Shown here piece after piece: positions 6,310 to 18,781 of a DNA stretch of 64,000 nucleotides; position 1 is the stretch's first letter, and every line of letters starts with the position of its first letter. The DNA is from Nitrospira sp. (lineage in GTDB: Bacteria > Nitrospirota > Nitrospiria > Nitrospirales > Nitrospiraceae), in NCBI GenBank assembly GCA_023248215.1, contig JAHFEW010000013.1:1-64000 (forward strand), written 5' to 3'. A program made the translations under genes and the position numbers. The notes under the pieces were generated by a model. The model did not search any database. It was not told the origin of the DNA and saw only the letters and a list, made by a program, of their open reading frames with translations.

Positions 6310-6741
6310 ATGAGTAAAGACCTCAAAGAAATGGAAGTGCTTCGCCAGCACCTGGCGAAGCATCAACTCAAGCTGACCCGCCAGCGGGAACTGATCCTGA
6401 CGGCCTTCTTGCGGCAGGAACACGTCACGGCTGAAGTCATGTATCACCAACTCGCCAAGAAGGATCCCCATCTGGGTCTCGCCACCATCTACCGCACACT
6501 GAACCTATTCTGCGAAGCAGGCATGGCCCAGGCCCGGCATTTTGGCTCGCAGACTCAATACGACAATATCTCGCACAAGGGCCATCACGATCACCTCATC
6601 TGTACCGGGTGCGGAACGATTGTGGAGTTCGAGAATTGCGAGATCGAACGGTTGCAGGAGGAGGTGGCGACTAAAAACGGCTTCGTCATCCAAACCCACC
6701 GACTGGAACTGTACGGCCTCTGTTCCCGTTGCCGCCATTGA
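6310..6741 (+). CDS. fur: Fur-family ferric uptake regulator
   Basis: A 143-residue metal-dependent repressor. An N-terminal winged helix (residues about 8-85, with the recognition segment HLGLATIYRTLNLF) is followed by a dimerisation/metal domain with the His cluster HKGHHDHLICTGCG and two CxxC pairs (C98/C101 and C138/C141) for structural zinc. The family includes Fur, Zur and PerR. The neighbourhood (ferric ABC importer directly downstream, TonB system, two bacterioferritins, Fur-box-like sites) supports an iron sensor. It probably controls the operon starting at 14393. Confidence 0.88.
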   Translation: MSKDLKEMEVLRQHLAKHQLKLTRQRELILTAFLRQEHVTAEVMYHQLAKKDPHLGLATIYRTLNLFCEAGMAQARHFGSQTQYDNISHKGHHDHLICTGCGTIVEFENCEIERLQEEVATKNGFVIQTHRLELYGLCSRCRH

Positions 6742-6835: not shown

Positions 6836-7867
6836 ATGGCTTCATTCCCTCGCGCAATCTTGGCTCTGACTTTTGTCCTCGGAGCACTGGGTGTATCCCA
6901 ACTCACCACGGCTACCGCGGCCGCTGCCGACAAACTCGTCGTGTACTCGGGTCGCGCGGAACGGCTCATCAAACCTGTTTTGGACGAATTCCAATCGAAA
7001 AGCGGCATCCAGATCGAACTCCTGTCCTCCGGAACGACCGAGTTGGTCAACCGATTGCAGGCTGAAGGTGACCACACCCCAGCCGACGTGTTCCTGACGA
7101 ACGATGCCGGCAGCCTCGAACATGCGCGAGAACTCAAACTGCTCAGGCCCATGAATATGCGGGAGGTCGAACGGGCCATTCCCTCGCAATTCCGCGCGCC
7201 CGACAACAGCTGGATCGGCCTTTCCGGCCGATTCTGGATTATCGTCTACAACACGACCTTGGCGAAGCCTGCTCAGATCAAGTCACTGCTTGATCTTTCC
7301 CAACCACAATGGAAAGACAAAATTGCCATTCCCAATTCCGGCAGCGAGTATCTGCAAGCAGGCGTGTCGGTCATCAAGGCGACCTTCGGAGACGAGCGGA
7401 CGAAACAATTTCTCCAAGGCCTCAAGACCAACGCGGGCACGCAGGTGTATCAGAAAAGCTCGCAGATCGTGGAGGCTGTGGCCAAAGGACAAGTTGCGGT
7501 AGGAATCGTAAACCACTACTACATTTATCGCCATCTCGCCACACAACCGACGGCGCCGATCGCAGCCTTAATGCCCGATCAGCAAGAAGGCGGCATGGGC
7601 GCTATTATGAATGTGTCCGGAATTGGGGTCACACGCGCCTCGAAACACGTCGACAGCGCCAAACTCCTCATTGAATTCCTGGTCGCCCAAGCCGGCCAGA
7701 AATTGTTTGCCGACCTTGATAAAGAGTATCCTCTGCATCCGGATGTGAAAGCCGACCCGGCGCTCGTCGACCGGCATGCCTTCCGTGCTGCACTCGTTCC
7801 ACTGGCCCGACTCGCCGAATTGCGCGAGCCGACCCTCACCCTGATCGAGCAGGTCGGCCTTCGCTGA
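6836..7867 (+). CDS. fbpA: Ferric iron ABC transporter, periplasmic binding protein (FbpA/FutA type)
   Basis: Periplasmic Fe(III)-binding protein of 343 residues that delivers iron to the permease encoded next. It has a signal peptide over residues 1 to about 30 (hydrophobic ALTFVLGALGV, cleavage near TAAAA), then the family start KLVVYSGRAERLIKPVLDEF. The segment VAVGIVNHYYIYRHL contains the Tyr-Tyr pair used for Fe(III) coordination in FbpA/FutA proteins. ATG 6836 has GGAGG at good spacing. It is followed closely by permease and ATPase genes, forming fbpABC. Confidence 0.9.
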   Translation: MASFPRAILALTFVLGALGVSQLTTATAAAADKLVVYSGRAERLIKPVLDEFQSKSGIQIELLSSGTTELVNRLQAEGDHTPADVFLTNDAGSLEHARELKLLRPMNMREVERAIPSQFRAPDNSWIGLSGRFWIIVYNTTLAKPAQIKSLLDLSQPQWKDKIAIPNSGSEYLQAGVSVIKATFGDERTKQFLQGLKTNAGTQVYQKSSQIVEAVAKGQVAVGIVNHYYIYRHLATQPTAPIAALMPDQQEGGMGAIMNVSGIGVTRASKHVDSAKLLIEFLVAQAGQKLFADLDKEYPLHPDVKADPALVDRHAFRAALVPLARLAELREPTLTLIEQVGLR

Positions 7868-7882
7868 ACTCGTCCATTGATT

Positions 7883-9487
7883 ATGGTCACCGCCACCAGG
7901 TTCAACGCACCTTCTCCGTTGCAGTGGATCAGTCTGATCACCGCAGCATGCCTGGTCTTGCCCACGTGCTATATCATCTATGTGGCGCTGACCGCTGCGC
8001 CAGCCGTGTGGAGCCGCCTCTGGTCGACCCGCATCCCTGAGCTTCTGTGGAACACCCTGTCCCTTGCCACGAGCGTGGCCATGACCACCTTAGTGCTCGG
8101 CGTGTCCCTGGCCTGGATCATGGTTCGATATGAATTTCCCGGCCGTCGAATCTGGGAATGGGCGATCGTCCTTCCCCTCGCGATGCCGACATATGTGCTC
8201 GCCTACGTGTACGCCCATCTCTTCGGCATGGGGGGCCCCGCAGAGCAGTGGTGGCAGGCCTTCCTGGGTTCGGAAGCCCGGCTACTCTCACCCCAAAGCT
8301 TCTCCGGCGTCACGCTGATCATGGCCCTCGACACCTTTCCTTTTGTCTACCTGCTGGCTCGAAGCGCACTCCTGAATCTCAATGTCTCCTTTGAAGAAGT
8401 GGCACGCGCCTGCGGCGTGCCTCCCTGGGCCGCACTCTGGCGAGTCACTCTGCCGCTCATTCGTCCCGCCATTGCAGCAGGGCTCGCACTCGTGATTTTG
8501 TATGTCGTCTCGGACTTTGGGGCCGTCTCTCTTCTCCGTTACCAAACACTCACCTATGCAGTCTACCAACAGATGACCGGCCGCTACGACCAGAGCGCCG
8601 CCAGCATCCTGAGCCTGCTGCTCGTGGTCATGGCCATCATCTTTCTCGTGACGGAACGATGGTTCCGCCAACGCAGTCGCTTCTATCAAACATCCGGCCG
8701 ATACCGCACATCGACTCGTCGTCGCGAGGGCCTCGTGGGCACCACCCTCCTTACGACCTACGTGGTGCTGGTCTTCGGGGCCTCCTTCGGTATTCCGGCC
8801 GTCATGCTGATTCAGTGGAGCATCGCTGCCCTTTCCCAAGGAGCGCTGGATGCCCGATTTTTCACCTTCGTCTGGAATAGCAGCTTTCTGTCCGCTCTGG
8901 CGGCTGGCGGTGCCGTCCTGATCGGTCTCCCGCTGGCCTACCTGGCCAGCCGCCGACCTTCGCGGCTCAATCTCGCCTGTCTCCAAGCCGCATACGCCGG
9001 CTACGCCCTGCCCGGCCCGGTCACCGCCCTCGCGGTCCTTGTGCTCTTCACCCACTTCGTACCGGCCTTGTACGGCTCGGTGGTCGTACTGCTCATCGCC
9101 TACGTCCTGCATTTCATCCCCGTGGGACTGCAATCCATGGAGCCGGCGCTGCAACAGGTGACCCCCAATGTGGAAGAGGTAGCACGAACCTTAGGCTGCA
9201 CGACTCGACAGACCCTCCGGCGTGTCACCCTGCCGCTTATTCAAAATGGTTGTGTCACCGCATGGGTCTTGATGTTTCTGCAGACCATGAAGGAACTTCC
9301 AGCCACCTTACTGTTGCGTCCGGTTGGATTTGATACACTGGCGATTCGTGTCTGGCTGGAAGCCAGTGAGGAGTATTATCAGCTGGCAGCGCCTTCCGCC
9401 CTGCTGATTGTCCTGCTAAGCGTGCCGGCGCTGCTGTTGCTGGTCTCCAAGGATTGGCGGGGGCGTCATCAGGGGGTCGTCACATGA
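7883..9487 (+). CDS. fbpB: Ferric iron ABC transporter permease (FbpB type)
   Basis: Large inner-membrane permease of about 534 residues made of two fused BPD-type halves, as in FbpB/SfuB. Each half has an EAA loop: EEVARACGVPPWAALWRVTL (about residue 172) and EEVARTLGCTTRQTLRRVTL (about residue 430), which contact the ATPase. About twelve helices are predicted. ATG 7883 is chosen over an in-frame TTG at 7877. Its stop overlaps the ATG of the ATPase gene (ATGA), suggesting translational coupling. Confidence 0.92.
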   Translation: MVTATRFNAPSPLQWISLITAACLVLPTCYIIYVALTAAPAVWSRLWSTRIPELLWNTLSLATSVAMTTLVLGVSLAWIMVRYEFPGRRIWEWAIVLPLAMPTYVLAYVYAHLFGMGGPAEQWWQAFLGSEARLLSPQSFSGVTLIMALDTFPFVYLLARSALLNLNVSFEEVARACGVPPWAALWRVTLPLIRPAIAAGLALVILYVVSDFGAVSLLRYQTLTYAVYQQMTGRYDQSAASILSLLLVVMAIIFLVTERWFRQRSRFYQTSGRYRTSTRRREGLVGTTLLTTYVVLVFGASFGIPAVMLIQWSIAALSQGALDARFFTFVWNSSFLSALAAGGAVLIGLPLAYLASRRPSRLNLACLQAAYAGYALPGPVTALAVLVLFTHFVPALYGSVVVLLIAYVLHFIPVGLQSMEPALQQVTPNVEEVARTLGCTTRQTLRRVTLPLIQNGCVTAWVLMFLQTMKELPATLLLRPVGFDTLAIRVWLEASEEYYQLAAPSALLIVLLSVPALLLLVSKDWRGRHQGVVT

Positions 9488-10632
9488 ATCGTGCGAACGC
9501 ATCGGAAACCGATAAGCAACAGTGCCAACCTGCAGCCCCCGCACTCGAGGGCGAAGATTTGACCGTCTCCCGTTCACCCGTTCTTGAACTGCGCGAGGTC
9601 TCCTGTGCCTACGAGCCGAACCGGCCAGCCGTCGAACAGATCACGTTCACGGTCCACCAGGGAGAAATCCTCTGTCTCTTGGGCCCCTCCGGATGCGGCA
9701 AAACCACCATTCTTCGCGCGATCGCGGGGTTTGAGCGGGTGATCGCCGGCAAGATTGCGCTCTCGGGGCAACTCGTTTCTTCGAGGGACACCATGGTCCC
9801 CACGGAACAACGGCACATCGGTATGGTCTTTCAGGAATATGCCCTGTTTCCCCACCTGCGCGTCGACAAGAATATCGCCTTCGGCCTCAGCCATCTCTCA
9901 CGGATCCAACAGAAGGCCATCGTTGATGATCTCCTGGCCCTCACCGGGTTACACGGTCTAGAACACCGGTACCCCCACGAGCTGTCCGGTGGTCAACAGC
10001 AACGCGTCGCGCTGGCTCGCGCGCTGGCCCTGCGCCCAGTGCTGCTGCTGCTCGACGAACCCTTCAGCAATCTCGATCCCGATATGGCCAGCCGCATGCG
10101 ACAAGACCTCCACGCACTGCTGCGACAAACCAAGACGACGGCGATTCTGGTCACCCATGACCACGATGAAGCCTTTGCCATGGCGGACCGAGTGGCGGTC
10201 TTGAACCGTGGCCGGCTGGAACAATTCGACACGCCCGAAGCGATTTACCACCTGCCGACCACACCGTTCGTCGCCGACTTCGTTGGGCAGGCGGATTTCA
10301 TTTCCGGCATCGTAACGAACGACCTGGTCACCACCGAAATCGGTGAATTTCCCAATACCAGGAATCTCCCCACAGGCACCAACGTGGTCGTGATGATTCG
10401 CCCCGACGATATTCATATCGTGCCGACCAAGGGAGCAGATGCCCACATTCTGGGAAGGCAATTCAAAGGATCCGAGAATGTGTATACAATCCAGCTCCCC
10501 TCCGGACAAATCGTGCACAGCAGCGAATCGTCCTTAAGCATTTATCACGTGGGAACGGCGATTGCCCTGCGAGTGGTGGCGACACATACCGTGCTGTTCC
10601 CTCAACAGCCCGGACCACGAGCGGACACGTAG
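9484..10632 (+). CDS. fbpC: Ferric iron ABC transporter ATP-binding protein (FbpC type)
   Basis: Cytoplasmic ATPase of 382 residues powering the importer. It shows Walker A GPSGCGKT (about 67-74), Q-loop VFQEYALFP, signature LSGGQQQR, Walker B LLLLDEP and the switch His in LVTHDHDEA. The C-terminal 100 residues form a TOBE-like domain (VMIRPDDIHIV). An N-terminal extension of about 30 residues precedes the ATPase fold. ATG 9484 overlaps the permease stop by four bases. No terminator is seen before exbB, so read-through into the TonB system is possible. Confidence 0.93.
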   Translation: MNRANASETDKQQCQPAAPALEGEDLTVSRSPVLELREVSCAYEPNRPAVEQITFTVHQGEILCLLGPSGCGKTTILRAIAGFERVIAGKIALSGQLVSSRDTMVPTEQRHIGMVFQEYALFPHLRVDKNIAFGLSHLSRIQQKAIVDDLLALTGLHGLEHRYPHELSGGQQQRVALARALALRPVLLLLDEPFSNLDPDMASRMRQDLHALLRQTKTTAILVTHDHDEAFAMADRVAVLNRGRLEQFDTPEAIYHLPTTPFVADFVGQADFISGIVTNDLVTTEIGEFPNTRNLPTGTNVVVMIRPDDIHIVPTKGADAHILGRQFKGSENVYTIQLPSGQIVHSSESSLSIYHVGTAIALRVVATHTVLFPQQPGPRADT

Positions 10633-10753: not shown

Positions 10754-11179
10754 ATGGACGTGCTGAAAAATGCGGTTGAATATGGAATCATCGGATTACT
10801 GGTCGCATTGAGCGTATGGTCGGTCGCGGTCGCGGTCGAGCGGTGGCTCTACTATCGACGCGTGGATCTGTCGCAATTTTCCGACGTGCAGACCTTTGAA
10901 ATGGCGCTGACCAAACGGCTGGTCATCATCGGCACGGTCGCCGCCAATGCCCCTTATATTGGATTGCTGGGCACTGTCCTGGGAATTATGATGACCTTCC
11001 ACACGATGGGAACATCCGGCACAATGGCCGTCAATACCATCATGATCGGCTTGAGTTTGGCGCTGAAGGCGACCGCCGTCGGCTTGCTCGTCGCCATTCC
11101 CTGCGTCGTCATGAACAACGTCTTACGCCGCCGCGTGGCGGAACTTCTGACCACGTATAGGACCCAACATGGAACGTGA
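10754..11179 (+). CDS. exbB: ExbB/TolQ-type proton channel subunit, short form
   Basis: Inner-membrane motor protein of the TonB system. At 141 residues it is the short ExbB form (as in epsilonproteobacteria) rather than the roughly 240-residue enteric form. It has three hydrophobic helices: residues 8-30, then the conserved block AANAPYIGLLGTVLGIMMTF, then LALKATAVGLLVAIP with the conserved Thr. ATG 10754 follows GGTGGAGGA. Its end overlaps exbD, and it energises outer-membrane transport together with ExbD and TonB. Confidence 0.9.
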   Translation: MDVLKNAVEYGIIGLLVALSVWSVAVAVERWLYYRRVDLSQFSDVQTFEMALTKRLVIIGTVAANAPYIGLLGTVLGIMMTFHTMGTSGTMAVNTIMIGLSLALKATAVGLLVAIPCVVMNNVLRRRVAELLTTYRTQHGT

Positions 11180-11543
11180 GGTTAATCAGATCAATGTGAT
11201 CCCACTGGTGGACGTGATGCTGGTGCTGCTCGTCATCGTGCTGACCACCGCAACCTTCATCAGCACCGGCCAGATACCAGTGAATCTCGCGAAAGCGAAG
11301 GAAGCCGGGGATCGCAAAGATGTGCCCGTCGTCGTTACGCTGACAGCGAACGGCGAACTCTTTCTGAACGACCGGCCGATTCCGGCGGACGGGCTCAAAA
11401 CCGTTCTCCTGGCGCACCCGCGCGAATCCCTGGTCGTCGTGCGGGCCGACAAAGTTACCCTACTGGAGCGGTTCGTCTCGGTCGTAGACGAGATACGTGG
11501 ATTGGGATTTCAATCTGTCAGTCTGGAGGTTGTACGGTTGTGA
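11169..11543 (+). CDS. exbD: ExbD/TolR-type biopolymer transport protein
   Basis: A 124-residue single-pass inner-membrane protein with a periplasmic domain. The N-terminus INVIPLVDVMLVLLVIVL carries the essential channel Asp in the membrane helix. The periplasmic part (SLVVVRADK... VVDEIRGLGF) matches the ExbD/TolR fold. It overlaps exbB by 11 bases and tonB by four (GTGA), so exbB-exbD-tonB is one tightly coupled unit. Confidence 0.92.
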   Translation: MEREVNQINVIPLVDVMLVLLVIVLTTATFISTGQIPVNLAKAKEAGDRKDVPVVVTLTANGELFLNDRPIPADGLKTVLLAHPRESLVVVRADKVTLLERFVSVVDEIRGLGFQSVSLEVVRL

Positions 11544-12502
11544 CCACCCGTCATGCCGGCATACCCGGCGAATTCTTCCGCCTCCGTACGAGCGGGTGGA
11601 TCGTCTCGTTGTGCCTGCATGGCAGCCTCATCTTCTTAACTGGGCTCCTCGTCGCCAAAATCGGCCTGGCCCCGCCGTCACCCCTGTTTCATTGGGATGT
11701 GACGGTCATCGACCCTCCCAACTCGTCACCGACTCCCCCGGCATCTCCTGAAGTGCCCGTGGCTTCTTCGAAAGTCACCAAGCCTATTCTACGCAGCACT
11801 CCATCGAGCGCAGCCGGCAACAGGCGGTTCCTCGCACCGCTCCGGACCGCGCCAGCACCGACCTCAACAGCCGCGGCGACAGACCACCAAACTGTCGATT
11901 CAGTCCTCACCCAGCACCACCAAGACCCCCAGCGGACACTTGAGCACATCGCTGCTGTCCCTCTTCACGAACAGCAGGAATCAGCAAGTGAGCAGAGCGT
12001 CCAGCATCATGCGGCCTTGGTGCCGGCGGAAACACCTATAGAACCACACGCTCCACAGCTGGCGCCGGTGCCGCCAGAGGCTGCGGCTCCTCCTGCGTCA
12101 GAACCGTCATCGCATTCGCTTGCCCCACAGCACGTGCTTGAGACTGCAACCACTCCGGCCCAAGTGGCGTCGCTCACCCCCTCGACCGCCACGACTCCGG
12201 TCGCCCGGAAACCGGACTATGGGTGGCTCGCAGACACCCTCCTGCATCGCATTGAAGCGCTGAAACGATATCCCGCTTCGGCACGGCTGGATCGTCTGGA
12301 AGGACGCGTGATAGTGCGGATTGTGATCGAAGAAGACGGGCAGATCGCGTCAGTCGCTATCGCAAAAAGTTCCGGCCATGACGTACTGGATCAGGCGGCA
12401 CTGGAGACCCTTCGAGAGGCATCGCCGATCGCACTGACGCGGCCGCTCGAAAAATCCCCGGTGACGATTCAGATTCCCCTCAGTTATCGCCTTGGCCGGT
12501 AG
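11540..12502 (+). CDS. tonB: TonB energy-transducing protein
   Basis: A 320-residue protein anchored by one N-terminal helix (about residues 18-40). A long Pro/Ala/Thr-rich periplasmic spacer (about 50-220) is followed by the C-terminal TonB fold: ALKRYPASARLDRLEGRVIV, VIEEDGQIASVAIAKSSGHD, then LDQAALETLREASP. It couples the ExbBD motor to outer-membrane receptors. GTG start overlapping the exbD stop. No TonB-dependent receptor gene is in this window, so its client is encoded elsewhere. Confidence 0.93.
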   Translation: MTTRHAGIPGEFFRLRTSGWIVSLCLHGSLIFLTGLLVAKIGLAPPSPLFHWDVTVIDPPNSSPTPPASPEVPVASSKVTKPILRSTPSSAAGNRRFLAPLRTAPAPTSTAAATDHQTVDSVLTQHHQDPQRTLEHIAAVPLHEQQESASEQSVQHHAALVPAETPIEPHAPQLAPVPPEAAAPPASEPSSHSLAPQHVLETATTPAQVASLTPSTATTPVARKPDYGWLADTLLHRIEALKRYPASARLDRLEGRVIVRIVIEEDGQIASVAIAKSSGHDVLDQAALETLREASPIALTRPLEKSPVTIQIPLSYRLGR

Positions 12503-12586: not shown

Positions 12587-13615
12587 TTATTCACCGCCCT
12601 CATTGATTCGGACCCTTCCTTTGAGATACGAGGAAATCCAAACCTTACCGTCGCGATCTACTATGATCGCGCCGACCCCCGGAAGCCGTTCGATTAATGC
12701 CAGCCCCCGTTTTCGCCCCATCACAAAGACTCCAGTATCCAAGCCATCCGCCGTCACCCCATCACGGGCCACTACCGTGACACTTTGGCAGTCACGCGCC
12801 GGTTGCAATGTCACCGGATCAAGAATGTGATGGTACCGCACGCCGTCCCGTTCGAAATAACGCTCATAGTCCCCCGCTGTCGAAATCGCCTCATCCTGAA
12901 GATCGACAAACGCCAGCACCGCGTCCTCGCGCCGCGGATGCCGAATGCCGAAGGGAAACTTCGTGCCGCCTGGAAGCTGACCGAACGTCCTCATGTCGCC
13001 AGACAAAGCAACAACCCCTGCGGCTGCTCCGGCCTTCTGCATCGCCGCTACGGCCATGTCCGCTGCAAACCCCTTACCGATACCCCCAACATCCACCCGC
13101 ATACCGGCCTTGGCCAAATAGGCCGACCCTTGTACTTTATTAAGATGGAGCGCTCTCAGATCCGTGAGCGGGCGAACCGCCTGTAACGCCTCATCCGGTG
13201 GAACCTGTTGTCGATCCAAGACGCTCCATGCCTCGACTGCCGGGCCCACAAGAATATTGAAGCCTCCGTCCGTCAACCGAGCCATCTCAATCGAGGCTTC
13301 CAAAATACTCATCGTATCAGGACTGATTGCAATGGCCTTCCTGCCGGCCGCTGCATTGACTTGCGAGAGTTCGCTGGTCGCGATCCAGGTACTGAGCAAC
13401 TCTTCTAAACGATGGATCTCTTGAAATCCGGCCGATGCCGCCTCCTGTGCCATCGGCCGACTTGGTGCGACAGCCGTCACGGTCACCAGTGTCCCCATGT
13501 GCATCTGCGTCCGCTTCACGACTACAGGAGCGGTCGCAACGCCCCCCCCTACACACCCCGCCCCAAACAACAGAGCGATGAAGAGACCACCCATGATTGC
13601 AATGCGATATCCCAT
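12587..13615 (-). CDS. apbE: FAD:protein FMN transferase (ApbE), lipoprotein
   Basis: Exported enzyme that attaches FMN covalently to Thr/Ser of FMN-binding proteins using FAD. 342 residues with a lipoprotein signal (LFGAGC lipobox near residue 20). Family landmarks are QMHMGTLVTVTAV, VDVGGIGKGFAADMAV, ALSGDMRTFG, FGIRHPRRED, STAGDYERYF, HHILDP and DGLDTGVFVMG. AGGAG precedes the ATG at 13615; an ATG at 13636 also exists but overlaps the upstream lipoprotein gene. A probable substrate, the SGAT-bearing FMN-binding protein, is encoded about 3 kb away in the divergent operon. Confidence 0.93.
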   Translation of the reverse strand: MGYRIAIMGGLFIALLFGAGCVGGGVATAPVVVKRTQMHMGTLVTVTAVAPSRPMAQEAASAGFQEIHRLEELLSTWIATSELSQVNAAAGRKAIAISPDTMSILEASIEMARLTDGGFNILVGPAVEAWSVLDRQQVPPDEALQAVRPLTDLRALHLNKVQGSAYLAKAGMRVDVGGIGKGFAADMAVAAMQKAGAAAGVVALSGDMRTFGQLPGGTKFPFGIRHPRREDAVLAFVDLQDEAISTAGDYERYFERDGVRYHHILDPVTLQPARDCQSVTVVARDGVTADGLDTGVFVMGRKRGLALIERLPGVGAIIVDRDGKVWISSYLKGRVRINEGGE

Positions 13616-13625
13616 CCACAGACTC

Positions 13626-14252
13626 CTACCAGACATGACGCTGAAAATACTTTGGGTATCGAGGATAGGGCAAGACCTCGTACAGCCGAGTCTCTGTCTC
13701 TGCGGGGAGAGGAATGACCGTCATCAGGGATTCCCCCGCGAGGGCCGGAAACTGCTCTCGAATCTTGTCTTCCGCCTGTTGTCGTGCGTCGTTTTCAGAA
13801 ACCATTGACACGAGCACCATGCGTCCATAACGAGGCGAATCAACTCCAAAACGCCAGGTCCCCACATAAGCGATGGGTTCGTCTCCCACCGAAAACGAAG
13901 AAGAGAGCTGAGCCATTGAGAGAAATGGACCTTCGCTGATTTGCACTCGCGTGATTTCGTACGCTCCCGCGGGAAGAAAAAAGGCAAAGGCCTTATCGTT
14001 TGCCTCAACTGTCACACTGTATCGGACGTCTGTCTGACGATGCAGCAGTTCCACCTGACGAACCTCCGGCCCAAACCGTCTCTCCCGGTCCCCGGTAATC
14101 ACTGCGACCGCTCGGCCTGCGACGAGAATCATCCGAGCATCCACTGGCTGTGGGACGGTCGGCGCCTCTGTGACACACCCCCATAAGCCGGTGAGCCATA
14201 ATGTCCCTACTACCCCCGCCAGGCGGAAGGTATTTAGAGAGGCTCGTCTCAT
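13626..14252 (-). CDS. Putative lipoprotein of unknown function beside apbE
   Basis: A 208-residue exported protein: N-terminus MRRASLNTF, hydrophobic segment, then LTGLWGC as a plausible lipobox. The mature part looks all-beta: RMILVAGRAVAVI, then FAFFLPAGAYEITRVQI, then AYVGTWRFGV. The 'LPAGAYEI' segment recalls PEGA or carboxypeptidase-regulatory-like folds, but I cannot assign a family. It immediately precedes apbE in the same direction and diverges from the Fur-box operon. It may be a surface or periplasmic accessory of the flavin/iron system (inference). Confidence 0.65.
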   Translation of the reverse strand: MRRASLNTFRLAGVVGTLWLTGLWGCVTEAPTVPQPVDARMILVAGRAVAVITGDRERRFGPEVRQVELLHRQTDVRYSVTVEANDKAFAFFLPAGAYEITRVQISEGPFLSMAQLSSSFSVGDEPIAYVGTWRFGVDSPRYGRMVLVSMVSENDARQQAEDKIREQFPALAGESLMTVIPLPAETETRLYEVLPYPRYPKYFQRHVW

Positions 14253-14323
14253 GAGGCAATTATAGGTAACCGGGCAGGGGGAATGCACGCGAGCAGCACC
14301 GCACAGAGACCGACAATCTACGC

Positions 14324-14353
14324 TTGACATTCCGACCCCTATCGAGATATTAA
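14324..14353 (+). promoter_or_regulatory. Sigma-70-type promoter of the Com-like/porin operon
   Basis: TTGACA at 14324-14329 and TATTAA at 14348-14353, spacer 18. The -10 element is overlapped by the Fur-box-like sequence, the expected arrangement for iron-dependent repression. Confidence 0.6.
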
Positions 14354-14365
14354 TAATCGTTCTCA
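14351..14365. promoter_or_regulatory. Fur box (12 of 14 matches to the 7-1-7 consensus)
   Basis: Read on the minus strand the site is TGAGAACGATTATTA; against TGATAAT-N-ATTATCA it mismatches at two positions in the first half and one in the second, so 11-12 of 14 match depending on how the half-sites are scored. It overlaps the -10 region of the rightward promoter and may also affect leftward transcription of the lipoprotein-apbE pair. Confidence 0.6.
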
Positions 14366-14392
14366 ATTTCATTAATAAATCTATTCTCCACC

Positions 14393-14572
14393 ATGATTGC
14401 AAGCAAAACTCCGACTTCCCCTTCCTGCCAGAACAGCGAGACTCGTTGCGAATGCGGACAACTCATCGCCAAGGTTTGCGAGCAAGGCCTTGAGGTCAAG
14501 TGCAAGCGCTGCAAACGCATCGTAGTGATCCCATTCATCTCAATCGAAGGCTGGGGCAGCGTCACAGCATGA
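14393..14572 (+). CDS. Com-like zinc-ribbon mini-protein (59 residues)
   Basis: A short ORF with the pattern TRCECGQLIAKVCEQGLEVK followed by CKRCKRIVVI, that is CxC...CxxC (Cys at about 19, 21, 37 and 40). This matches the Mu Com family, small zinc-finger proteins of which phage Mu Com is a translational activator that binds mRNA. It is the first gene after the Fur-box promoter, and its stop overlaps the start of the next ORF (ATGA). No strong Shine-Dalgarno is visible before its ATG. I infer a possible RNA-binding or translational role for this operon. Confidence 0.65.
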   Translation: MIASKTPTSPSCQNSETRCECGQLIAKVCEQGLEVKCKRCKRIVVIPFISIEGWGSVTA

Positions 14573-14709
14573 TTCGAGTTACGAAAGGAGGCCTCGTCAC
14601 CGGCAAAGATCCAGGACTTCGATCTTACACACTTGTTTTCCCTACAGACCAGAGACCCTTGAGTCCCGAGTCAAACCACAACCTTACTCGCGATGGAGGA
14701 TACCGATGA
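14569..14709 (+). CDS. 46-residue ORF bridging the Com-like gene and the porin gene
   Basis: It starts with ATGA overlap on the Com-like gene and ends with ATGA overlap on the porin gene, so the three frames form an unbroken chain. The protein begins MIRVTKGGLVTGKDPGL and ends NLTRDGGYR; no family recognised, no signal peptide, no membrane segment. It may be a real small protein or a coupling ORF whose translation delivers ribosomes to the porin start, possibly under Com-like control. Confidence 0.4.
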   Translation: MIRVTKGGLVTGKDPGLRSYTLVFPTDQRPLSPESNHNLTRDGGYR

Positions 14710-16181
14710 AGATACGGTCAATCCTCGGGGCTCTCGTCCTGGCCAGTTTACCGGCGATGCCGGCGTTGGCTGAAAACATGACCCCGGAGGACATCAAAAA
14801 GCTGGTCGATGAAGCGGTGGAGAAACGGTTGCAAGAACACGAACGGCGCGAAGGTACTGCTGAACGTCGGGAGCGTCCCACCATGCCTGAGGAAGAACCA
14901 GGAATAGGTTCTCTTCCTGAGGTTGGACGGGAACGCCGAACTGAAACGCAACCAGCCCTCTCCTTCGGATCGACCGGATCAGGGCGTTTAGTGTATGCCA
15001 AACCGTTCGTCTCAGCACCAAAAGCTATTGTCGGTGGCTATTTTGACATCCAATACCGTTCGCATCGCAAAGGCGTCCTAGAAACCGGCGGATTTGGCAA
15101 CGGGACGACGAATGGATTCGACCAGCAACGATTTGTACCCTTCATTTACGCAGACATTACAGAGCATGTGAAGTTTGCCTCTGAAATTGAGATCGAGCAC
15201 GGGATTAGAGAAACCAGTGACAACGAAATCAGCCTGGAATTTGCCCATATGGACTATCTCGTGCATGAACCCTTCAACATTCGGGCAGGGATTCTGCTTA
15301 TCCCCATCGGCAAGTTCAACTTGCTGCACGACTCGCCGTTGAACGACTTGACCGATCGGCCGCTTGTCAGCCGGCTGATCATCCCGACAACCATGGCCGA
15401 GACAGGCGTGGGGTTCTATGGCACCCTCTATCCTGGCCGCACGAGCAAACTGGATTATGAGTTCTACGTGACGACCGGTCCTTGCGGATATAACCAAGAC
15501 GGCTCCCCACGTGTCAGTGAGGAAAACGGCACGAAAAACTCCCGGCAACGGAAATGCGCATCCGATGACGGGTTGGACATTAATAACGGGAAAGCGGTCT
15601 CAGGTCGTGTGGCCTTCAGCCCGATGCTCGGCGTAGAAGTCGCAGGATCGAGCTATTACGGTAATCAATCTGCCACCAGCTATAACCCCTTGAGTATCAC
15701 GGCAATTGACTGGACGCTCCAAAAAGGACCGTTTGAGATCCTCGGCGAAGCTGCGTGGGCCTATGCCAGAGGAAACTCCCGGGCGATTCAAGGAGCTACA
15801 TTTGCCACCCCTGGGACACTGCTGAGCGGTCTCAATACGTTGAATTCCTTTGCTGCTCCCCCACAACGGATGCAGGGATTCTATATTCAAGGTAACTACC
15901 ACTTCATGCCGGCGTTCCTGACCAAATTCTCGCCGAAGCGGTTCGGTGAAGGGTCCACGTTTACTGCCGTCGTCCGGTATGACCGCGTAAATTTGAATCG
16001 GGATAACCGAGGCGAAAGTGAGGGCCAACTTGAACAGATCTCCTTTGGCTTGAATTATCGGCCCGTCGAGGATGCTGTCTTTAAGATCAGCTATCAATAC
16101 ATGCCGAAGGCGTTTAACGCGAACACCGGAGAACGGATTCACGACAGTGCTGTTGTTCTCTCAGCCGCAACGTATTTCTGA
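14706..16181 (+). CDS. Outer-membrane porin (phosphate-selective-porin-like)
   Basis: A 491-residue outer-membrane beta-barrel protein. It has a signal peptide (to about residue 22, PAMPALA), then a charged helical segment (about 25-60, EDIKKLVDEAVEKRLQEH) likely to form a coiled coil or reach the peptidoglycan, then alternating beta-strand sequence to a C-terminal Phe (AATYF), the usual barrel end. It resembles OprO/OprP-type porins in general pattern. Two Cys about 24 residues apart (near 260-285) could close a loop disulfide. It is not a TonB-dependent receptor: no plug or TonB box. Start supported by GGAGG. Confidence 0.75.
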   Translation: MKIRSILGALVLASLPAMPALAENMTPEDIKKLVDEAVEKRLQEHERREGTAERRERPTMPEEEPGIGSLPEVGRERRTETQPALSFGSTGSGRLVYAKPFVSAPKAIVGGYFDIQYRSHRKGVLETGGFGNGTTNGFDQQRFVPFIYADITEHVKFASEIEIEHGIRETSDNEISLEFAHMDYLVHEPFNIRAGILLIPIGKFNLLHDSPLNDLTDRPLVSRLIIPTTMAETGVGFYGTLYPGRTSKLDYEFYVTTGPCGYNQDGSPRVSEENGTKNSRQRKCASDDGLDINNGKAVSGRVAFSPMLGVEVAGSSYYGNQSATSYNPLSITAIDWTLQKGPFEILGEAAWAYARGNSRAIQGATFATPGTLLSGLNTLNSFAAPPQRMQGFYIQGNYHFMPAFLTKFSPKRFGEGSTFTAVVRYDRVNLNRDNRGESEGQLEQISFGLNYRPVEDAVFKISYQYMPKAFNANTGERIHDSAVVLSAATYF

Positions 16182-16191
16182 TTCGAGCACG

Positions 16192-16222
16192 GGCGATCCT
16201 TCTCTGCTAGAGAGGGATCGCC
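16192..16222. other. Intercistronic hairpin after the porin gene
   Basis: Arms GGCGATCCTTCTCT and AGAGAGGGATCGCC pair over 14 bases with a single G-U, loop of three. No U-run follows, so it is more likely an mRNA-stabilising or processing hairpin than a terminator; it would allow a high porin to downstream-gene ratio. Confidence 0.6.
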
Positions 16223-16239
16223 GTGTACGAGAAGGAGTA

Positions 16240-16713
16240 ATGGTTACCGTGTCGACCTCACGTATAGCAGTGATAGCCCTCATCATCCTCTCTGCAGGGT
16301 GCGCTTCTTTCAGCGGAAGCCGAGACCAATATTATGTTTGTTCCTATGACACCGTCTGGGACGCCACGTTCGAAATCATGAAGGGACAATCCGTCACTTC
16401 ATCCGACAAGGGGACGGGGTTGATCGAAACAGCTTGGATGGACGTCGCCCCGCTCACGGAACGCTCCTTCGGGATTTTCGCACGTGAAGGCTTTGGGAAT
16501 AGAGAACGCGCACGCATGAGCGTTTCCGTCAAACGAATGAATGATGTGGCCGCGGTGAGCGTATTGGAAACCCGGCAACGATGGCACTCGCAGGGCGGAG
16601 TTACTTCACAAGCCACCAAATGGTGGCCCATAGAACCATCGCAAGATATGACGAATGACGTCGTTGATCGGATCAACTCAAAGTTAAAGGAACAAGGATG
16701 TCTGCCCACATGA
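16240..16713 (+). CDS. Small lipoprotein of the porin/FMN-binding operon
   Basis: A 157-residue exported protein with a clear lipobox (LIILSAGC, Cys near residue 20). The mature part begins with YYVCSYDTVWDATFEIMKG and contains VTSSDKGTGLIETAW, a pattern seen in small periplasmic lipoproteins with a beta-alpha fold (DUF4136/BamC-like look), but I cannot name the family. Start ATG 16240 with GAAGGAG. Its stop overlaps an in-frame ATG of the FMN-binding gene. Confidence 0.7.
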   Translation: MVTVSTSRIAVIALIILSAGCASFSGSRDQYYVCSYDTVWDATFEIMKGQSVTSSDKGTGLIETAWMDVAPLTERSFGIFAREGFGNRERARMSVSVKRMNDVAAVSVLETRQRWHSQGGVTSQATKWWPIEPSQDMTNDVVDRINSKLKEQGCLPT

Positions 16714-17387
16714 TCGCTCGCCTGCTGGTCTTCTCACTAATGTTGCTGTTCTCACTATCCCCAGTCCTCGTCAGGGCCGAACGTGTTTGGGACAATGAAC
16801 TCAAACGCTATTTGACAGAACAAGAGATGACGATGGCCGAAGTCTTTCTGACCGAAGAGGACGCGGTAAAGCTGATGTTCCCGAAATCCGAACGTATCAG
16901 AAAGGAACTGTTAAGAGTCCCAATGGACAAAAAAGCCGTGATCGAGAGCCGTATCGGCTGGAAATTTCCTGAGGACTCTTTTGAGGTCTATATAGGCGAG
17001 ACCAGTGAGCACATCGACGGCTACGCCTTCGTGCAGAATACCATCGGCAAACACAAACCCATGACCTATATGGTCGGAGTTGACGCGCAGGGACTGGTGT
17101 CGAATGTGGAACTACTCGTTTTTCGAGAAGCGCGTGGGAGTGAGGTGCGAACCAAGCGTTTCAACGTACAATATGAAGGCAAATCGGTACTGGATCCGGT
17201 GCGCATCAATAAAGATATCATCAATATCAGCGGAGCTACTATGTCGGTCCGTTCAATGACCGCCGGGATTAAGCGGGTTCTGGTGCTCGTCGATGAATTC
17301 TACTTGAAACCGCTGGGCCAAGGCAGCGACACTATGACCGCCCAAAAATCCGAGAAGGGCTTCTTCAAATCTATTTTCGGGAACTGA
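16698..17387 (+). CDS. Exported FMN-binding domain protein (ApbE substrate)
   Basis: A 229-residue protein with a signal peptide (hydrophobic LLVFSLMLLFSLSPVLVRA) and a C-terminal FMN_bind domain of the NqrC/RnfG/NosR type. The motif ISGATMSV places the flavin-accepting Thr at about residue 181. The usual Asp three residues before the S/T-G-A-T is not conserved. It probably carries covalent FMN in the periplasm and passes electrons. ATG 16698 has AAGGA upstream; ATG 16710 overlaps the previous stop (ATGA) and would also give a complete signal peptide. Confidence 0.85.
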   Translation: MSAHMIARLLVFSLMLLFSLSPVLVRAERVWDNELKRYLTEQEMTMAEVFLTEEDAVKLMFPKSERIRKELLRVPMDKKAVIESRIGWKFPEDSFEVYIGETSEHIDGYAFVQNTIGKHKPMTYMVGVDAQGLVSNVELLVFREARGSEVRTKRFNVQYEGKSVLDPVRINKDIINISGATMSVRSMTAGIKRVLVLVDEFYLKPLGQGSDTMTAQKSEKGFFKSIFGN

Positions 17388-17399
17388 GCCCCACCAGAG

Positions 17400-17918
17400 A
17401 TGCGCAATTTCAACTCCCGTTTTCGGCTCCGCGACTCGGATCGCCATATCCGACTGGTGTACACTTTTTTCCTCTGCTTGATGCTGGCTGGCTTTACCTT
17501 TTCCTTCTTCTGGGCTCACAGCATGACGGGGTTGTCGCCACAAGGAATTGCCGATCACTACCGAGGTTCCAATGCGACATTTGGCGAACCGATGTCGTTC
17601 CGTGAACTTGCTGAGATTACACACTTTCATTTGTTTACGATGCCCGTTGTGTTCATTATCCTGGTGCATGTGCTCTATCTCACCAATACCAGCAACCGAC
17701 TAAAGGTGGTCACGACCTGGATCTCATTTGGCGGAGTCATCCTGGACTTGCTGTCCCCGTGGCTGATTAGTTATGTCTCTCCTATTTTTGTCTTAACCAT
17801 GCTCACGGGGGATACTTTCATGACGGTTGGCTTCTTGATCATGATGGCGATCCCTCTTTATGAGATGTGGGTACTGAAACAACCGTTGATGGCGGGAAAG
17901 CGCGCAGAACACGGGTGA
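17400..17918 (+). CDS. Four-helix membrane protein with conserved-looking His residues
   Basis: A 172-residue inner-membrane protein with four predicted helices (about 19-42, 72-93, 100-120 and 126-150). Helix 2 and its edge carry THFHLFTMPVVFIILVHVL, with three His spaced so that two lie on one face; together with His in WAHSM they could hold heme or metal. Family not recognised. Being last in the operon, directly after the FMN-binding protein, it is a candidate quinol- or heme-linked electron donor to that protein (inference). Confidence 0.65.
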   Translation: MRNFNSRFRLRDSDRHIRLVYTFFLCLMLAGFTFSFFWAHSMTGLSPQGIADHYRGSNATFGEPMSFRELAEITHFHLFTMPVVFIILVHVLYLTNTSNRLKVVTTWISFGGVILDLLSPWLISYVSPIFVLTMLTGDTFMTVGFLIMMAIPLYEMWVLKQPLMAGKRAEHG

Positions 17919-17969
17919 GCTAGCAGGTAGCCGAATTTCGACTTAGAGTGCGGCCAGAGGTTGTCAGCC

Positions 17970-18013
17970 CAGAGCCCGAGATCGTTCAACACGGTCTTGG
18001 GCTCTGTTTTTTT
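17970..18013 (+). terminator. Strong intrinsic terminator
   Basis: Arms CAGAGCCCGAGATCG and CGGTCTTGGGCTCTG (15 bp, two G-U type mismatches) followed by seven T (18007-18013). It closes the porin/FMN operon. The T-run directly touches the Shine-Dalgarno of the next gene. Confidence 0.85.
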
Positions 18014-18022
18014 GGAGGAACC

Positions 18023-18781
18023 ATGAACCCATCGATGGTGCCGATCAACTGCATGACGCGGCTCATCCAGGAAGTCACGCGGCAGCTTGCCGCGCTGAAT
18101 TCGCTGCAACTCCCTGATGGATCGTTGCAAGAGGTTCGCCTGCGTCAACTCCGACGCCTGGCACGGCGAATCGAAGCTTCGTTCCCGGAGCATTTCGGGC
18201 ACGGTGAGCGCACGGCGCACTATGCCCTCTTGCTTGCCCAGGCCATCGGTTTGACCCAAGGACAGCTGACCAATTTGCACTATGCGGCGCTGCTGCACGA
18301 CATCGGGCTTTTGACCATCCCCGGTGAACTCCTTGACGATGCGGCTCCCCTCACATTGGACGAGTATGCCCTCGTCCAGAGTCATCCCCGGGCAGGGGCA
18401 GCGCTGTTGAGTCCCTACAGCTTCCTCTCTGAGCCGGCCCGTCTGATTGCACACCACCATGAACGCTGGGATGGAGCAGGCTATCCATATGGCCTCCGGG
18501 GTAACTACATCCCTTTATCGGCCAGAATTCTCGCCATCGCGGATGTGTTCGACGCCATAGCCTCACGATCGGAATCATTCCACGCTGCACTGCGAACCAT
18601 TCGTGCATCATCGGGCTCGCAGTTCGACCCGAATCTCCTCGCAACGTTCTGTTTATTGTTCGACGATCAAGAGCACAGCCGCCAGTTCCCATTCGATCCC
18701 TCGATGGCAGCCGCCGTCGTTTCACCAAGGGCGACAATAGCCCCTCACAACGACACCTATGACCTGAGACCTCAGCAATAG
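18023..18781 (+). CDS. HD-GYP domain protein, probable cyclic-di-GMP phosphodiesterase
   Basis: A 252-residue protein consisting mainly of an HD-GYP domain. Visible motifs are HGERTAHYALLLAQ, LLHDIG, SHPRAGAALL, HHHERWDGAGYPYGL, IPLSARILAIADVFDAI. The Lys that normally follows HDIG is Leu here, so activity may be altered. No sensor domain or receiver is fused; the N-terminal 50 residues are helical. ATG 18023 follows GGAGG (18014-18018), which abuts the upstream terminator. Followed after seven bases by an AraC-type gene. Confidence 0.85.
   Translation: MNPSMVPINCMTRLIQEVTRQLAALNSLQLPDGSLQEVRLRQLRRLARRIEASFPEHFGHGERTAHYALLLAQAIGLTQGQLTNLHYAALLHDIGLLTIPGELLDDAAPLTLDEYALVQSHPRAGAALLSPYSFLSEPARLIAHHHERWDGAGYPYGLRGNYIPLSARILAIADVFDAIASRSESFHAALRTIRASSGSQFDPNLLATFCLLFDDQEHSRQFPFDPSMAAAVVSPRATIAPHNDTYDLRPQQ

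Follow-up and report, generated by a model that had tools for sequence, protein, structure and literature searches.

A cluster of envelope genes in a 64 kb stretch of Nitrospira DNA (the window, part of contig C115 in a genome of 4.69 Mb whose matches among named genomes are Nitrospira) is best read as encoding an envelope ferric reductase that serves iron assimilation and is repressed by Fur, a reading that we hold to be probable. The cluster brings together ApbE, a flavin mononucleotide (FMN) transferase, and an exported protein with an FMN_bind domain, in the company of a porin, a Zn-ribbon protein, lipoproteins and a small membrane protein that we call TM4. The gene set is real and conserved, it has a Fur box at its promoter, ApbE is paired with a substrate of its own, and iron-related genes are its neighbors. 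With confidence only a little above even, we further propose that TM4 is the founder of a new family of membrane proteins that transfer electrons for flavinylated carriers, and that it may be a b cytochrome holding two hemes in a dimer. In this proposal it is the centerpiece of a Fur-controlled system for iron reduction, so far without a name, that is a regular feature of Nitrospirales and is shared with Manganitrophus, Methylomirabilota and Tectomicrobia. The genes, their order and their strands, including the divergent lipoprotein and ApbE genes and the strong terminator, are as a first-pass annotation of the window had described them, and the reading frames agree:

12587–13615, minus strand: ApbE FMN transferase with a lipoprotein-like signal (PF02424, E 5e-78), the sole ApbE of the genome
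13626–14252, minus strand: lipoprotein A, from its translation, present in a minority of relatives
14324–14351, plus strand: sigma-70-like promoter, TTGACA-16-GATATT, with TTGAC retained in relatives
14346–14364, plus strand: predicted Fur box, overlapping the -10, from consensus match and conservation among relatives
14393–14572, plus strand: Com-like Zn-ribbon protein of 59 residues, CxCG...CxxC, with C19, C21, C37 and C40 invariant in 19 relatives
14569–14709, plus strand: 46-codon open reading frame, probably no conserved gene, with no Pfam match
14706–16181, plus strand: outer-membrane porin, an OprP/OprO-like beta barrel, from AlphaFold, Foldseek and Porin_O_P matches in relatives
16240–16713, plus strand: lipoprotein B, weakly DUF3576/NlpB-like, kept in Nitrospirales
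16698–17387, plus strand: exported FMN_bind protein (PF04205) with SGAT, the sole FMN_bind protein of the genome, its motif retained in relatives
17400–17918, plus strand: TM4, a four-helix membrane protein with invariant E72, H75, H77 and H90
17970–18006, plus strand: intrinsic terminator, 16 pairs and a T run, from sequence

In the mechanism we propose, Fur would leave the promoter at 14324–14364 when iron is scarce, and the lipoprotein ApbE would attach FMN to the threonine of the SGAT motif on the Sec-exported FMN_bind protein. TM4, whose invariant histidines include two on the periplasmic side and one close to the cytoplasmic side, would draw electrons from the membrane and pass them to the periplasmic FMN; the donor is probably quinol, and the path probably runs through b heme bound between two TM4 subunits. 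The flavin would in turn reduce Fe(III), or ferric chelates, reaching the periplasm via the porin or TonB-dependent receptors, and the freed iron would be imported by FbpABC here and by FTR1 in some relatives. The interpretation offered in the first-pass annotation is supported in part: Fur control, a dedicated ApbE/FMN_bind pair, the iron context and wide co-conservation of the set hold, and the 46-codon open reading frame drops out as a conserved part. Extracellular dissimilatory iron reduction was set aside, as none of the cluster's genes was seen to encode a multiheme partner and regulation by Fur suits assimilation.

The gene set travels together over a wide range of genomes. TM4 is present in 39 of the 41 genomes of a close set, and in a phylum sample of 296 genomes, 99 of them Nitrospirales, the FMN_bind protein and TM4 are both found in 85 Nitrospirales genomes, both missing from 14 and never found singly. 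At class level the two fall in the same 8 genomes, further TM4 matches in G166 and G253 being of a longer paralogue type. Among the 14 Nitrospirales genomes that lack both, ApbE is absent from 8, 4 have only a higher-scoring ApbE type, which in G082 and G038 is also found away from the cluster, and 2 have the locus at contig ends. Apparent retention of ApbE after loss of its partners, in G003 and G237, was rejected, since a contig edge lies just past ApbE. A scan of named genomes recovered 187 loci, extending to Candidatus Manganitrophus, Troglogloeales, Methylomirabilota, Tectomicrobia, Oligoflexia and Myxococcales; FMN_bind lies at most 400 nt from TM4 in 130 of 139 cases, and the 43 named loci longer than 12 kb hold FMN_bind (43), porin (41), ApbE (37) and Zn-ribbon (36) genes. 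Even in Manganitrophus/Troglogloeales, Methylomirabilota and Tectomicrobia, where the relatives are about 30% identical, FMN_bind and TM4 lie near Fur, FbpABC or FTR1. The co-occurrence that the first-pass annotation had proposed to look for is thus widespread, both in Nitrospirales and in the long named loci.

A conserved predicted box at the promoter makes Fur regulation the best reading of how the cluster is controlled. The Fur box, GATATTAATAATCGTTCTC (14346–14364), matches the consensus at 15 of 19 positions, is the top site of the window and overlaps the -10 (TTGACA from 14324, GATATT to 14351), just where a Fur-box-like site had been noted earlier. Markov shuffles of the intergenic region reached at least 15 matches in 11 of 5000 cases. 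When 31 relatives, mostly Nitrospira and hence kin to one another, were each aligned on their own box, its columns showed 91% mean agreement versus 51–52% in either flank. Boxes with 16/19 matches and a different sequence stand in the distant loci L046, L047 and L064, and the Fur gene itself lies within the run in distant classes. In some distant loci, for example L045 and L053, no box was found before the Zn-ribbon gene, which is not the first of its run there. Judged by box search, shuffles and conservation among relatives, the prediction of Fur control holds.

The Fur box also favors an alternative in which iron is the signal and not the substrate. Under iron starvation, the flavin protein and TM4 would replace a heme or iron–sulfur branch of the periplasmic respiratory chain, as flavodoxin does for ferredoxin. 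Such sparing of iron would fit the suggestion that flavinylation is advantageous in iron-poor settings (PMC8238504), as well as the existence of related proteins of 236–268 residues that carry a TM4-like domain and CxxCH. We consider it unlikely, however, because the cluster keeps company with Fbp or FTR1 importers and a porin, not with respiratory enzymes.

In the proposed reductase the flavin would be loaded by ApbE. In genome-wide searches the FMN_bind protein is the only PF04205 protein and ApbE the only PF02424 protein, their genes lying about 3 kb apart. The exported, SGAT-bearing FMN_bind protein and the ApbE of the first-pass annotation are both confirmed, the FMN_bind domain scoring 31–34 bits against a curated cut-off of 22, and the pair can fairly be called dedicated. 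Across related sequences the flavinylation motif takes the form [ST]GA[ST] in 128 of 137, the others being AGAT or GGAT variants, fragments or a motif-less paralogue in L055. By simple signal rules, enzyme and substrate are assigned to matching compartments. In Nitrospirales ApbE is exported, mostly with a lipoprotein-like signal, and its substrate is of the Sec type; Methylomirabilota and Tectomicrobia have a signal-less ApbE and a twin-arginine (Tat)-type substrate as separate genes; and seven of the sampled Nitrospirota genomes, all outside Nitrospirales, encode both proteins in a single long frame, in which the ApbE part lacks a signal and a Tat-like RRxFL signal precedes the FMN domain (fusions with this internal signal are found in L044, L045, L046, L053, L054 and others). 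Enzyme and substrate switch compartment jointly, which is hard to account for unless ApbE acts on the FMN_bind protein. The sequence evidence establishes the two as a predicted enzyme–substrate pair, and FMN would be covalently attached to the latter. A fusion of the reverse order, FMN_bind then ApbE, with GGAT for SGAT, occurs in an Oligoflexia record (L077:5287–7014).

TM4 is the least familiar component. Its AlphaFold model has four long helices (mean pLDDT, the predicted local distance difference test score, 88.5), and its charge distribution predicts an N-in topology with both ends inside. Among 38 sequences, down to about 30% identity, E72, H75, H77, H90, G56, K102 and W121 are invariant, in keeping with the four-helix, histidine-bearing membrane protein described earlier. 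In predicted helix 2, H75 and H77 lie toward the periplasmic end and H90 near the cytoplasmic end, a spacing of 13–15 residues, with H77 and H90 13 residues apart on the same helix. This is close to the spacing of histidine pairs in two-heme cytochrome b helices, and TM4 may bind b heme and accept electrons from quinol. As each chain has a single helix of this kind, heme binding would call for two chains, like the dimer reported for FezC (PMC11334425).

No Pfam family was found in the 38 TM4 members, with nothing from NapH, MsrQ, PepSY, DsbD, NQR/RNF or DUF4405 at E ≤0.1, and no NCBIfam family was found either. A PDB sequence search returned no meaningful relative, Foldseek gave no significant match, only common helical bundles, and the top VIA score (Z 7.8, to cytochrome oxidase subunit I) is within the range of such bundles. 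By these sequence comparisons TM4 belongs to none of the described partner classes. Nitrospirota also encode proteins of 236–268 residues in which a CxxCH heme-c-like segment is joined to a TM4-like domain (L043:664–1374, L052:6006–6812 and L055:5124–5849); they retain the His-x-His pair and not the third histidine, and have no Pfam family. At L055:3928–5849, TM4-like, motif-less FMN_bind-like and CxxCH-TM4 genes stand together, beside a copper-type P-type ATPase.

The neighborhood of the cluster is one of iron transport. Preceding ApbE and lipoprotein A, which follow TonB on the opposite strand, is a first plus-strand run that includes the FbpABC and TonB/ExbBD genes recognized in the first-pass annotation:

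6310–6741, plus strand: Fur-family regulator (PF01475, E 4e-34), adjoining the cluster in distant relatives too
6839–7867, plus strand: FbpA-like ferric-binding protein (SBP_bac_6, E 5e-20), in which NHYYIYRH retains the Tyr pair
7877–9487, plus strand: FbpB-like ATP-binding cassette (ABC) permease, from family matches, kept beside the cluster in relatives
9454–10632, plus strand: FbpC-like ABC ATPase with a TOBE domain, from family matches
10754–11179, plus strand: ExbB-like open reading frame, kept in relatives
11169–11543, plus strand: ExbD-like open reading frame, kept in relatives
11540–12502, plus strand: TonB (TonB_C, E 4e-18)

At least one iron-uptake or TonB-system gene lies nearby in 37 of the 43 named loci longer than 12 kb, a count in which the single-round FbpC search may include other ABC ATPases; a strict count of Fur, FbpA, FbpB or FTR1 only gives 14 of 43, limited by 7 kb flanks. 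Distant loci with long flanks nearly all carry Fur with FbpB/C or FTR1. The first-pass annotation had held that homologues in unrelated, non-iron contexts would refute it; that outcome did not arise, and the long loci mostly show an iron context. FTR1 (157–168 bits) lies in the run of L045, L054, L059 and L069; L045, L054 and L059 also have Cupredoxin_1 proteins there, and two more cupredoxin-like genes lie directly 3' of TM4 at L045:6164–7136, as also in L054, L059 and L060. The genome encodes eight TonB-dependent receptors, which may admit iron alongside the OprP-like porin. A genome search for FeoB gave nothing convincing, only weak GTPase matches that by score look like other GTPases.

Several considerations weigh against a ferric reductase. 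FbpABC is classically an importer of Fe(III), which leaves a preceding reduction in need of a rationale, and FTR1 elsewhere is usually tied to Fe(II) oxidation. In six of the 43 long named loci, none of the iron genes searched for lies nearby. No homologue of TM4 has a known function, so heme, quinol and the direction of electron flow are inferred, as is ferric iron as the acceptor of electrons from FMN. The FTR1 and Cupredoxin_1 genes in one run in L045, L054 and L059, together with the Tyr pair typical of Fe(III) binding in FbpA, could even suggest that electrons move inward, with FMN and TM4 removing them as Fe(II) is oxidized for FTR1 or FbpABC. This we judge very unlikely: FTR1 was not found in Nitrospirales loci, and known flavinylated systems near iron transporters have been proposed as reductases (PMC8238504). 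A substrate other than iron, such as copper, manganese oxides or a chelator, reduced by a system merely co-regulated with iron uptake, is the reading to which we give least credence; the L055 genes beside the copper-type ATPase and the OprP-like porin fold would suit it, but the neighbors of the conserved core cluster are Fur, Fbp or FTR1.

The porin model (AlphaFold pLDDT 76) matches OprP in Foldseek (2o4v, E 2e-12), and Porin_O_P (PF07396) is detected at E ≤0.1 in 17 of 27 relatives and not in the window porin, for which a PDB sequence search gave nothing meaningful; it would be a candidate route for iron. A paralogous porin (L142:6929–8425) occurs in G200, a genome without TM4, FMN_bind or ApbE, so the porin family also has another role. 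For the gene earlier called Com-like, the Zn ribbon and its invariant cysteines stand, and the likeness to Mu Com is only weak (3 of 19 relatives match Zn_ribbon_Com, at best with E 0.017). In L057 only some 90 nt lie between the Zn-ribbon and porin genes, too few for the 46-codon open reading frame to be conserved as a gene in its own right. Lipoprotein A has no family in Pfam or NCBIfam.

Nitrite-oxidizing and comammox Nitrospira have a high iron need and inhabit oxygenated surroundings of neutral pH, conditions that make iron insoluble, and to our knowledge their route of iron uptake is poorly known. If our reading is correct, a conserved flavin reductase under Fur control, present in 85 of the 99 Nitrospirales genomes sampled, would answer this question, and flavinylation-based electron transfer would gain a new membrane partner in TM4. 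PepSY ferrisiderophore reductases of the FoxB/FpvG type likewise perform Fur-linked periplasmic ferric reduction before import; here, in contrast, the PepSY domain is absent and electrons are proposed to pass via covalent FMN. Clusters that combine FTR1 with P19 and an FMN_bind protein resemble L045, L054 and L069, where FTR1 and FMN_bind also share one cluster, but the proteins scanned here include cupredoxins rather than P19, TM4, porin and Fur are added, and FbpABC replaces FTR1 in Nitrospirales.

Flavinylated carriers near iron transporters are already known, and their described membrane partners comprise five classes and DUF4405/FezC (PMC8238504, PMC11334425). Those clusters share with ours an apbE gene by an exported [ST]GAT FMN_bind protein and a membrane protein, as well as links to iron transporters, but TM4 matches none of their partners by Pfam, and a conserved Fur gene and box, a porin and a Zn-ribbon protein set the present cluster apart. 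DUF4405/FezC cytochromes are likewise small membrane proteins with conserved histidines, tied to flavinylation and iron, and FezC sites form through dimerization (PMC11334425); TM4, however, has no Pfam sequence match and four predicted helices versus six in DUF4405. ApbE is fused to its substrate in the trypanosomatid fumarate reductase and is cytosolic in Klebsiella (PMC12052999). Two delivery modes emerge here, exported ApbE with a Sec-type substrate and unexported, often fused ApbE with a Tat-type substrate; we did not find the latter pairing described. Nor did we find an account of this gene set, in a literature search that subscription papers and supplements lay outside.

Two further genes adjoin the cluster, here or in relatives. 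One, HD-domain-like by a look at its sequence (17948–18781 of the window), overlaps and follows the terminator and is found beside TM4 in many Nitrospira loci. The other, a small lipoprotein-like gene, lies between TonB and ApbE in two Nitrospira genomes (L140:4979–5401 and L141:956–1270).

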